This document shows, one piece after another, positions 59,110 through 64,000 of a stretch of 64,000 bases of DNA. The notes below the pieces were generated by a model. It ran no database searches. It was given only the letters and a program-made list of their open reading frames with translations, and was not told where the DNA came from. Source of the DNA: Lachnospiraceae bacterium (lineage in GTDB: Bacteria > Bacillota > Clostridia > Lachnospirales > Lachnospiraceae); contig JAGBMJ010000015.1 of NCBI GenBank assembly GCA_017634975.1, positions 62,001-126,000 on the forward strand, given 5' to 3'. Both the position numbers and the translations under genes were made by a program. Numbering within the stretch: position 1 is the first letter of the stretch; the number at the start of each line of letters is the position of its first letter.

Positions 59110-59180
59110 GCTTCTCCTAGCGGAGAAGCATTGAAGTCGCTCTAAGCCGCGACGGGCTCCCCCAAGCTTTGCTTGGGAGC
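59110..59180. repeat. Three tandem hairpins between tRNA-Lys and the next gene
   Basis: GCTTCTCC / GGAGAAGC (59110-59117 / 59122-59129, loop TAGC); GTCGC / GCGAC (59136-59140 / 59149-59153); GCTCC..CAAGC / GCTTG-GGAGC (59156-59180 with a two-base bulge). None is followed by a good T run. They may process or end the tRNA transcript, or regulate the gene at 59200. Confidence 0.6.
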
Positions 59181-60583: not shown

Positions 60584-60589
60584 GTGTTT

Positions 60590-60618
60590 GAGGACACGGG
60601 GACGGTTCTTTTGTCCTC
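60590..60618. repeat. REP-like hairpin with GGGGACGGTTCTTTTG core
   Basis: GAGGACA (60590-60596) pairs with TGTCCTC (60612-60618) around GGGGACGGTTCTTTTG. This core recurs in the arms of the 25339-25445 element and resembles REP-type sequences mobilised by IS200-like transposases in other Firmicutes; no such transposase is in the window. Confidence 0.65.
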
Positions 60619-60620
60619 AT

Positions 60621-61296
60621 AAATTCACGTTTAGCGAGCTCCCCGTCCTCGCTTCGCTCGTCCGGGGAGCTCGGGGGAGGGGAGGCCGGGCTGTTTCGAT
60701 TTCCTGCCTGCTTCTCGGTTTCGGAGATGTCAGGATACCATAAGGCTCCGAAACCAATCCGTTCGTTAAGATGCTCTATAAGCTGCCGGTATAATATATC
60801 ACTGCTTCCGGAACCGGAGCCCAAACGACGTCCGTGTCGTTGGGCTCCTTGTCCCACCATCCGGGTGGGACATTCCTATGGTATCGATGGCAGCTTAAGA
60901 GGCATCTAAACTCACTGCTTACGGTTGCGTATCCTTATGGTTATCCGACATCTCCTGCCATAGTATCTGGACGGAAACCGAAATCAGCCCGGCGCTTAAT
61001 AGTTTCGATTAGCGTCAGTGGCATTCGCAACCGTTTTGGGTGCTTTATGGAGTGACTTTAGATCATTCTTAAAACCGCATCGATAAAGAAGCTATGTGAG
61101 GCCCGGATGGCCTCACAAAGGCGCAATCGAGGCACGGATGCCGAGTTGCGCCTGGTAGCTGACCTATATCGGTAATTTGGTGCGGTTTTTAGAATATCTT
61201 AAGCCACGGAATCTGCAGCCAAAACGGTTGTGATGACCACAGACGCATCGATCCCCCCGACTGCGCCGGGCGTGACTGTTCGATAAACATGAATTT
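60621..61296 (+). ncRNA. Candidate large structured noncoding RNA (about 680 nt) bounded by inverted repeats
   Basis: No convincing protein-coding frame; instead nested complementary segments fill the region. Outer closing pair: 60621-60636 with 61281-61296 (14/16). Then 60671-60677 with 61254-61260. Domain 1: 60685-60698 with 60979-60993; the segment 60716-60745 with 60933-60980, pairing almost completely apart from an 18-nt bulge; 60766-60787 with 60889-60909. Inside it lie hairpins A (60816-60848, loop GTCCGT) and B (60852-60870, loop ATCCG). Domain 2: 61028-61039 with 61219-61230; 61061-61069 with 61191-61198; 61071-61079 with 61181-61189; then hairpins C (61095-61117, loop CGGAT) and D (61119-61153, tip ACGGAT). 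Loop B is the exact complement of C, and A can pair with D. Strand is inferred from a G-U pair in A-D and a tandem G-A in D. Transcription is unproven; a TATAAT at 60790 is probably internal. Confidence 0.5.
60635..60673. repeat. Strong GC-rich hairpin at the left edge of the structured region
   Basis: CGAGCTCCCCG (60635-60645) and CGGGGAGCTCG (60663-60673) form a perfect 11-bp stem, with a 17-base loop. It overlaps the inner end of the left boundary repeat. Confidence 0.7.
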
Positions 61297-61343
61297 GTGC
61301 TATTGCAAGTCAATTGCCGGTCTGATAAAGTAGTCAATGAATT

Positions 61344-61486
61344 GCTACCATTCAAAGTCGAATCGCGCACTTGTTGCGCGATTACGACCCAAAATACTTT
61401 GAGTGAGATGGGTTTTGCCCATCGCCGCAGGCGATTTTATTGGCAAAACCCGTTACTATCACAGCACGAAGGGCTGTGATAGTAAC
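61344..61486. mobile_element. 143-bp three-hairpin palindromic element (type A) with 8-bp target duplication
   Basis: The termini GCTACCATTCAAAG and CTGTGATAGTAAC are imperfect inverted repeats. Modules: H1 TCGCGCA / TGCGCGA (61363-61369 / 61375-61381); H2 GGGTTTTGCC / GGCAAAACCC (61410-61419 / 61442-61451), with inner ATCGCC-GCA-GGCGAT; H3 GTTACTATCACAGC / GCTGTGATAGTAAC (61452-61465 / 61473-61486). The element is flanked by AATGAATT on both sides (61336-61343 and 61487-61494), a target-site duplication showing that it moved as a unit. It lies 29 bp upstream of the GH9 start and has no gene. Confidence 0.8.
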
Positions 61487-61514
61487 AATGAATTGTTATA
61501 TTAGGAGGAATTGA

Positions 61515-64000
61515 ATGAAGAAAAGAGATATCAGATATAGATTAGCATCGGCGGCGGTAGCAGCAGTAGTTTCCTTTGCGGCAGTGGCAGAGCCGATCCA
61601 TGTTCTGGCAGGCGAGCAGCTGGGGGAGACAGATTTTGAGGAAGGGAAGGGGCTGCCCTGGCACATTGTAGAATCCGGTCCGGGAAAAATGGATTTTGAT
61701 ATCACCGGAGGAAAGTACGTGATCACGATCGTCAATCCGGGCGGGGCATCCCGTGGCGGCGAGGATCGCTGGGACTGCCAGTTCCGGCACAGGGGATTAA
61801 AGATCGTTGCGGGACATCAGTACCGTGTACAGTATGAGATCACGCCGTCCAATGCCGGCAAGTACTATACCAAGATCGGCAATCTGGAGGGAAATGTCGA
61901 GATCTGGCACAATATGAGCAACGGCTATGATCTGGATGCGACCTGGGATCCGATCCAGATCGGGGCAAATGAGACGAAAAAGGTGGATATCACGTTTACG
62001 GCAAACCAGAGTCTGGATGTTGCGGAGTGGGCATTTCATCTGGGGGGCGACGGCCAGTATACGAACGGTGACTGCTTTCCGGCGGGGACGGTGATCACCT
62101 TTGACAATATGTCTCTGTACGATATGACGTCGGATGAGAATGACTATGTGCAGGAAGTACCATGGGAGCGTTCCGGAGTGCTGACCAATCAGGTGGGCTA
62201 TTTTATCGGTGCTGCCAAGAAGGCAACCCTGCTTTCCACCGAGAGCAAAGGTGTGGCTTTTGATGTGGTGGATGCCGGCGGACAGAAGGTGTTCAGCGGA
62301 ACTTCGGAAGTGCTGGGTGCCGATGCGGATTCCGGTGACAGCGTGCATGTGATCGATTTTACCGGACTGGATACGGCCGGTACCTATCATATCGAAGCGG
62401 CCAATGGTGCCTCTTCCAGAGAGTTTGCCATCGGAGACAGCGGGATCTATTCCGCGATGCTGTACGATTCCCTGAATTATTTCTATCAGAACCGTTCGGG
62501 GATCGCAATCGAGAGTCAGTATATCACATCGGGTGACGCCAATGCACTGGCACGTGCGGCAGGACATATGCCGGACAATGCTACGATCGAGCAGACGTGG
62601 GGCTATACGGCTTCCTCCGGTTCGCAGGATGTGAGCGGTGGCTGGTACGATGCGGGTGACCATGGCAAATATGTGGTCAATGGCGGTATCTCACTCTGGA
62701 TGATGCAGAACCAGTACGAGACAGCGGTATGGACGGGAACGGCAGCTGCTTATGCGGACGGAACGATGAATCTTCCCGAGAACAACAACGGCTATCCGGA
62801 TCTGTTGGATGAAGCGCGCTGGCAGATGGAGTGGATGATGAAGATGCTCGTGCAGGACGGCGAGTGCAGGGATATGGCATACCATAAGGTGCACGATGAG
62901 AAGTGGACCGGATTGGGTATTGCGCCGTCGGAAGATACGATGAACCGTATCATCAAGCCGCCCACGACTGCAGCGACGCTGAATGTGGCGGCATGCGCAG
63001 CGCAGTCGGCCAGACTGTGGAAGGGCATAGATGATACATTCTCGGCAACCTGTCTGGATGTGGCAAAACGTACCTATGCAGCGGCCAAGGTACACCCGGC
63101 GATGTATGCGCCTTTGGATGAATCCGTGGGTGGCGGTGCCTATGGTGACAATGATGCAACGGATGAGTTTTACTGGGCGGCCGCCGAGCTGTATATCACG
63201 ACCGGTGATGATGCGTATTATAAAGATATGAAGAACTCGCCCTGGTTTTTGAAACTCCCGACGACTATGGACGGGGGTGAGAGCGTCGGTGCGGAAGCCA
63301 GCTTTGACTGGGGGCATACAGCAGCACTCGGAACGATGAGCATCTGTGTGAACGGAGATAAGGTGGATGCCGGAGATAAAAAGACGGCAGCAGCCAATGT
63401 GGTCGCCGCAGCGGATGCCTATATCAGGAAAGAAGAAACACAGGGGTACGGTCAGCCGTACGGGGCATCGCAGATCGCATACAATGATACCGACAAGGGG
63501 TATATCTGGGGGTCCAATTCGGCCGTGGCAGATAATGCGGTCGTGATCGCCTACGGATATCTGCTGACGGGAGATCAGAAATACTATAACGGTGCGGTAT
63601 CCGGAATGGACTACCTGCTGGGACGCAATCCGATGGACTACTCTTATGTGACGGGGTACGGTACGCATACGGTAAAATACCCGCATCACAGATACTGGGC
63701 AAACCTGATCGATGCCGCTTATCCTTTGGCACCCTGCGGTGTCCTGTCCGGCGGCCCCAATTCCGGTATGCAGGATCCGTGGGTGCGCGGTATGGGCTGG
63801 AAGAAGGGAACCATCTCTCCGGCAAAATGCTATCTGGATCACATCGAAGCGTGGTCGGTAAATGAATGTACGATCAACTGGAATGCGCCCCTGGCGTGGC
63901 TGACCGGCTTTTTGACACAATACACGGAGGAAGGGATCGTGGTCGGCAGCACGGGTAATGGCAGCGGTCTGGCGATCAATCCGCAGAATACCGCAAATAC
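61515..64000 (+). CDS. Secreted GH9 cellulase with N-terminal carbohydrate-binding module (3' truncated)
   Basis: The frame is open to the window end (828 full codons). Signal peptide with likely cleavage after VLA (about residue 32); residues 35-210 resemble a CBM4/9 module (beta-sandwich, DCQFRHRGLKIVAGHQYRVQY); about 225-310 an Ig-like domain (LTNQVGYFIG); then the GH9 barrel with DAGD (Asp379, Asp382) in SGGWYDAGDHGKY and the acid Glu784 in EAWSVNECTINW. Exported and acting on cellulose or mixed glucan. The C-end, outside the window, could hold further binding modules or a sorting signal. AGGAGGA precedes ATG 61515. The upstream region is occupied by a palindromic element, so its promoter lies within or beyond that insertion. 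Confidence 0.93.
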   Translation, partial: MKKRDIRYRLASAAVAAVVSFAAVAEPIHVLAGEQLGETDFEEGKGLPWHIVESGPGKMDFDITGGKYVITIVNPGGASRGGEDRWDCQFRHRGLKIVAGHQYRVQYEITPSNAGKYYTKIGNLEGNVEIWHNMSNGYDLDATWDPIQIGANETKKVDITFTANQSLDVAEWAFHLGGDGQYTNGDCFPAGTVITFDNMSLYDMTSDENDYVQEVPWERSGVLTNQVGYFIGAAKKATLLSTESKGVAFDVVDAGGQKVFSGTSEVLGADADSGDSVHVIDFTGLDTAGTYHIEAANGASSREFAIGDSGIYSAMLYDSLNYFYQNRSGIAIESQYITSGDANALARAAGHMPDNATIEQTWGYTASSGSQDVSGGWYDAGDHGKYVVNGGISLWMMQNQYETAVWTGTAAAYADGTMNLPENNNGYPDLLDEARWQMEWMMKMLVQDGECRDMAYHKVHDEKWTGLGIAPSEDTMNRIIKPPTTAATLNVAACAAQSARLWKGIDDTFSATCLDVAKRTYAAAKVHPAMYAPLDESVGGGAYGDNDATDEFYWAAAELYITTGDDAYYKDMKNSPWFLKLPTTMDGGESVGAEASFDWGHTAALGTMSICVNGDKVDAGDKKTAAANVVAAADAYIRKEETQGYGQPYGASQIAYNDTDKGYIWGSNSAVADNAVVIAYGYLLTGDQKYYNGAVSGMDYLLGRNPMDYSYVTGYGTHTVKYPHHRYWANLIDAAYPLAPCGVLSGGPNSGMQDPWVRGMGWKKGTISPAKCYLDHIEAWSVNECTINWNAPLAWLTGFLTQYTEEGIVVGSTGNGSGLAINPQNTAN

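Follow-up and report, generated by a model that had tools for sequence, protein, structure and literature searches.

Layout of the Unit and Its Locus

The window (the whole 64-kb stretch of DNA that was analysed, from the genome called G000 below) contains a unit of about 680 bp that takes in 60621-61296, upstream of a GH9 gene that starts at 61515. The unit is made of two TwoAYGGAY (RF01731) copies on opposite strands. A scan of the whole window with 4227 Rfam models at gathering cutoffs returned two RF01731 matches, one tRNA match and nothing else; the earlier note had likened the interval to ROOL, GOLLD and OLE RNAs, and neither these models nor those of raiA and HEARO matched. Both cores cover model positions 1-168 and, with 88.9 bits on the left and 89.2 bits on the right, score about twice the RF01731 cutoff of 43 bits. 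They are arranged head to head with 123 nt between them, outer arms prolong each core, and a terminal inverted repeat closes the pair. A known RNA family is thus present as an inverted pair, in a unit that looks mobile. Its features, with those that abut it, are:

60590-60618, no strand assigned: REP-type hairpin GAGGAC...GTCCTC, from sequence reading; abuts the left end of the unit and also lies beside the G000:C11 copy
60618-60637, no strand assigned: left terminal inverted repeat of the unit, 85% pairing with 61280-61299; also in the G000:C11 copy
60685-60754, minus strand: 3' outer arm of the left element; pairs with 60922-60993 (inverted repeats and fold)
60755-60921, minus strand: TwoAYGGAY core, left copy (RF01731, 88.9 bits, E 5.4e-14); GGA loops at 60860-60862 and 60831-60833
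60922-60993, minus strand: 5' outer arm of the left element (inverted repeats and fold)
61012-61043, plus strand: 5' outer arm of the right element, 81% pairing with 61215-61246
61045-61214, plus strand: TwoAYGGAY core, right copy (RF01731, 89.2 bits, E 4.5e-14); GGA loops at 61105-61107 and 61136-61138
61215-61246, plus strand: 3' outer arm of the right element, inverted repeat with 61012-61043
61280-61299, no strand assigned: right terminal inverted repeat and right end of the unit (inverted repeat); the match to the GH9-upstream region of G006 starts at 61300
61300-61335, plus strand: native GH9 upstream region, abutting the unit; 92% identity over 36 nt to G006:C174

Three relatives (G006, G021 and G032) have the gene order phosphoesterase, TatD DNase, GH9 (Pfam), and the unit is absent there; RF01731 has no match anywhere in the genomes of G006 and G021. 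In the window, the junction between the unit and the GH9 upstream region falls at 61299/61300, and this native region, followed by a further repeat, separates the unit from the GH9 gene. Comparison of these loci shows a gain or replacement here, without indicating the mechanism. The TatD DNase gene that G006, G021 and G032 have in this interval is missing from 60584-61300 of the window.

Fold and Covariation

Complementary segments are present in the interval, as had been described, in the form of four inverted repeats: 60723-60755/60923-60955 (33 nt, 79%), 60756-60787/60889-60920 (32 nt, 72%), 61012-61043/61215-61246 (32 nt, 81%) and the outer 60618-60637/61280-61299 (20 nt, 85%). The minimum free energy (MFE) of 60621-61296 is -322.6 kcal/mol on the plus strand, compared with a mean of -223.1 (sd 5.6) for 20 shuffles, none of which was as good (z -17.7), and -328.7 kcal/mol on the minus strand (z -17.95, 20 shuffles). 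Like stability on both strands is expected from a palindromic unit. The arrangement, however, is not the one mutually compatible nested fold that the earlier note proposed, but two side-by-side domains beneath an outer helix. The two long helices that it singled out both exist and belong to the left element, one being an outer arm pair and the other the inner helix. Its complementary hairpin loops are also real, but the complementarity is trivial. The minus-strand TwoAYGGAY copy has GGA loops whose antisense reads GTCCGT and ATCCG, and the GGA loops of the plus-strand copy read ACGGAT and CGGAT. Because the complementarity arises from one GGA-loop motif on opposite strands, it provides no evidence for kissing.

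The view of the interval as a conserved structured noncoding element held up, since its helices covary among homologues and its open reading frames of at least 50 aa are only short ones (60-94 aa). Compensatory changes, the check suggested for the helices, are present both in 40 cores and in six composite units. The 40 cores were chosen by hand from 36 genomes, the more diverged cores of other families being excluded because of poor alignment, and 36 pairs were tested. A standard pair occurs in 79.1% of cells vs 35-48% in slid controls, 29 of the 36 pairs have changes on both sides (24.1 in shuffles, 2 of 500 of which reach this number), and covariation scores 0.516 vs 0.160 shuffled and at most 0.187 slid. 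The six composite units (two from G000 and four from G032, some incomplete) keep the MFE fold of the window in 95.6% of cells, and of 249 pairs 19 have double-sided changes vs 7.7 shuffled and 1-4 slid. As the structure comes from one of these six units, the comparison leans in its favour.

Strand-specific constraint was read from G-U and A-C cells in 140 elements, namely those of the 200 RF01731 matches of the genus that were retrieved with full flanks. The junction helix and first hairpin together hold 61 G-U and 0 A-C cells, which looks like constraint on one strand, related copies being counted repeatedly. Counts of G-U vs A-C are 115 vs 99 in the inner helix, 3 vs 14 in the upper second hairpin (12 of the A-C cells at the loop-closing pair), 57 vs 83 in the poorly aligned lower second hairpin and 312 vs 344 over all pairs; the outer arms, with 163 vs 136, display little strand bias. 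Since only the junction helix and first hairpin give this signal, it amounts to a partial argument on strand, and RNA and single-stranded DNA are indistinguishable by it. Simple ungapped hairpin finders misplace the loops, and their loop tables were left out of these results.

Dispersal and Mobility

Of 35 genomes of the genus, 26 have RF01731 matches, 200 in total; the other 25 genomes of the sample have none. Among fully or almost fully scored genomes, G030 carries 24 copies, G029 21, G002 20 and G034 17. Most copies in fully listed genomes are single; the composite unit of the window has a second copy at G000:C11 (98%) and relatives on several G032 contigs. In the 140 elements, the median symmetric match score of an outer arm is 24 with its own partner; it falls to 14.5 for other copies within that genome (104 random comparisons) and to 7 for copies from other genomes (1569 comparisons). 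TwoAYGGAY elements are dispersed, multi-copy palindromes in genomes of related gut and rumen bacteria, and the arms of each copy match one another best, for which either selection or correction between the arms of a palindrome may account. As judged by eye, terminal repeats or flanking REPs differ by subfamily.

MITEs and REP/BIME elements are short and palindromic, have terminal repeats and are found in many, mostly intergenic copies. With its terminal inverted repeats, its multiple copies and no transposase gene inside, the unit corresponds to the definition of a MITE. TwoAYGGAY elements share with MITEs, REPs and BIMEs the short palindromes with terminal repeats and the many mostly intergenic copies, here with REPs adjacent, but differ in having a covarying RNA-like core, lineage-specific arms and no mobilising enzyme found. 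No transposase mobilising the element was identified, no clean target-site duplication was made out in the flanks inspected by eye, and no match indicated phage or plasmid carriage (two patterns in viral_contigs; blastn against phages and plasmids). A REP/Y1 transposase was considered as the mover and rejected: it was found in 13 of 26 RNA carriers and 2 of 9 non-carriers of the genus, not a significant association (p 0.24), and it is absent in G030 and G034 (24 and 17 copies; 99% complete). An IS200-like replication-strand bias was also rejected, 12 of 18 copies being co-oriented in G096 by hand count, with one beside a skew switch. The REP-type repeat of 60590-60618 flanks Y1 transposase genes at G019:C33 and G025:C20 and adjoins one at G024:C92. 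This repeat has 11 exact-core copies in G000.

Close pairs have a preferred orientation. In the 11 genomes whose lists are complete or nearly so (G000 and ten others), copies less than 500 bp apart form 11 divergent, 2 tandem and 0 convergent pairs. These pairs are not independent: one composite is common to G000 and G032, and a GH9 tree of 11 genomes shows kinship of G019, G025 and G031. Among the matches listed for other genomes there are six divergent pairs (G701, G352 twice, G380, G235 and G486) with 93-295 nt between cores; a further close pair in G235 was no longer a pair on re-scoring. Tandem pairs were seen in G029 (twice), G279 and G004, and no convergent pair was seen among all pairs inspected. 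Divergent copies with genes between them occur in G721 (847 nt apart) and G259 (1104 nt). A cargo transposase between divergent copies was rejected, as the intervals inspected hold other genes: that of G012 has serpins (two of its genes were scanned), that of G721 a CAAX-protease-type protein, and that of G259 an acetyltransferase together with a protein that matches nothing in Pfam. At the serpin cluster of G012 (L043 1890-2250 and 4895-5290; two genes confirmed by Pfam), two intergenic copies have similarly placed arms and oppositely oriented cores, which suggests a probable in-place inversion.

GGA Loops and Co-occurrence with CsrA

TwoAYGGAY was described in 2010 (PMC2864571), and a 2014 paper still called its function unknown and proposed CsrA binding because of the GGA loops (PMC4333381). 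In the window, loop 1 is CCGGAT in both copies, with C instead of A before NGGA, and loop 2 is ACGGAC and ACGGAT. Of the 140 genus elements, 119 have both GGAs, always 26-28 nt apart, and 21 are without one. Among 40 cores, a set that overlaps the 140, both are present in 34, at a distance of 25-28 nt. According to a review (PMC7652899), a CsrA dimer bridges sites 10-63 nt apart and the loop bound is ANGGAN; the 26-28 nt spacing falls within this range, and the loops are ANGGAN-like. The same review reports that hairpins of at most 4 bp dominated CsrA SELEX, a length that the TwoAYGGAY stems exceed, and that very stable stems are perhaps disadvantageous for CsrA binding.

In csrA-bearing genomes, GGA is present in loop 2 of all 118 elements and in loop 1 of 100; in csrA-less ones, with 22 elements, it is present in loop 2 of 21 and in loop 1 of 20. 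A non-GGA loop 1 in csrA-bearing genomes is mostly of CGA type. The CGA loop is one base shorter than NGGA, and was seen in one hairpin in L053, L043, L216, L206 and L209 and in both hairpins in L278. In 21 elements of G013, G019, G025, G031 and G001, the last having a csrA fragment only, the GGA loops are 97% identical between copies, compared with 66% for the cores and 47% for a linker. The loops being kept in csrA-less genomes, CsrA is not their sole keeper there, unless its loss is recent or the gene was undetected.

The RNA and CsrA tend to occur together outside the genus sample. In the following tests genomes count as independent, with kinship ignored and no control gene alongside CsrA. 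In a draw from the family (397 genomes, 334 genera), CsrA is encoded by 62 of 65 RNA carriers vs 148 of 332 non-carriers (Fisher p 4e-16), where 63 of the 65 carriers are over the family cutoff and weak carriers were possibly missed, six candidates being scored per genome. The exceptions are G511, G657 and G694. In a draw from the class (291 genomes; 20 of 28 carriers over cutoff) the figures are 24 of 28 vs 71 of 263 (p 1.5e-9), and with the own family set aside they are 20 of 24 vs 66 of 257 (p 3e-8); the four CsrA-less carriers of the class draw are assemblies 80-95% complete. Several csrA matches were found in 14 of the 62 carriers with CsrA vs 16 of the 148 non-carriers with CsrA (p 0.03). 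Six csrA matches were counted in one RNA carrier, G685.

The own genus shows no such association: CsrA is encoded by 21 of 26 carriers and 8 of 9 non-carriers (p 1.0). G000 encodes CsrA, and csrA was undetected in five carriers, G008 (88% complete), G013, G019, G025 and G031 (92-100%); G019 and G031 (100 and 99% complete) have 11 and 9 RNA copies. Irrelevance of CsrA, considered on the basis of the genus only, was rejected because the class and family samples display co-occurrence. As a correlation among genomes, this co-occurrence supports the 2014 proposal that TwoAYGGAY may bind CsrA.

Interpretation

We propose that TwoAYGGAY elements spread as non-autonomous, MITE-like DNA units, that their central part may act as RNA, and that the two GGA hairpin loops, 26-28 nt apart, would be a putative dock for both RNA-binding faces of one CsrA dimer. 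We regard the chances of this combination as evenly balanced. Transcripts carrying an element would titrate CsrA or fall under CsrA control, and the unit in the window would expose one putative CsrA site in transcripts of either strand. More tentatively, the elements might be transposon-borne CsrA decoys, self-spreading palindromes often amplified in divergent pairs, that would seed clostridial genomes with dimer-bridging sites and titrate or rewire CsrA.

Both halves of the unit match RF01731 over its full length and have the twin NGGA-loop hairpins and the known conserved fold of the family; different here are the head-to-head pair within an inverted-repeat unit, outer arms that extend well past the Rfam model, and the dispersed, multi-copy occurrence. 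Like CsrB/RsmZ, the Csr/Rsm RNAs of Gammaproteobacteria, the elements have GGA in hairpin loops and paired sites at a CsrA-bridging distance, but they have two sites per element, very long stems, multiple copies, apparent mobility and clostridial hosts, and their CsrA binding is putative. Dispersal, divergent pairing, arm behaviour and CsrA co-occurrence are new here, none of them having been found stated in the parts of the TwoAYGGAY and CsrA literature used for comparison, the Rfam entry itself lying outside that comparison. A dispersed, multi-copy palindrome whose presence goes with that of CsrA, and whose two CsrA-type hairpins keep a fixed distance, makes the 2014 proposal sharply testable. 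If the proposal is true, mobile DNA would distribute the binding sites of a global RNA regulator, and if the elements are decoys, Csr RNAs would exist beyond Gammaproteobacteria and be mobile. If CsrA does not bind, the csrA-less relatives would point to another ligand of the GGA loops.

It is possible, although we think it rather doubtful, that the elements are selfish palindromic DNA only, MITE- or REP-like, whose fold serves their own movement as single-stranded DNA or RNA. The GGA loops would then be read by a mobility factor, and the CsrA correlation would be a by-product of lineage or lifestyle. The multiple copies with terminal repeats and adjacent REPs agree with this, as do the GGA loops kept in csrA-less genomes, the little strand bias of the outer arms (163 G-U vs 136 A-C) and the G012 cores inverted between similarly placed arms. 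It is harder to reconcile with the CsrA co-occurrence (62/65 vs 148/332), with a Y1 transposase that is dispensable (none in G030 and G034; 13/26 vs 2/9, p 0.24) and with a replication-strand bias that is not strong (12/18 co-oriented in G096).

A cis-regulatory leader, here on the GH9 gene, is unlikely. Rfam types RF01731 as Cis-reg and the unit does lie upstream of the gene at 61515, but its two copies occupy opposite strands, it is separated from the gene by native GH9 upstream sequence and by a further repeat, and it is absent before the GH9 orthologues of G006, G021 and G032. Around the copies in general, the upstream neighbour is on the same strand in 64 of 105 cases and on the opposite strand in 41, and the downstream neighbour in 63 of 108 vs 45, a mild bias obtained from crude ORF calls with 34 of 145 copies excluded as overlapped by a called ORF.

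The single large ornate RNA with kissing loops of the earlier note, in spite of a z of -17.7 and a whole unit conserved in G000 and G032, is very improbable given the lack of any ROOL, GOLLD, OLE, raiA or HEARO match, a minus strand that folds equally well, the single state of most copies in fully listed genomes, and a loop complementarity that is one motif on opposite strands.

Two minor observations concern the surroundings of the unit. A repeat of about 143 bp lies at 61346-61487, between the GH9 upstream region and the GH9 start; it has at least six further copies in G000 at 93-96% and at least seven in G010, and its ends are flanked by a near-direct repeat, CAATGAATTG(C/T)TA, which may be a target duplication. 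On the other side, a hairpin-rich stretch was seen by eye at 59110-59180, after the tRNA-Lys gene.
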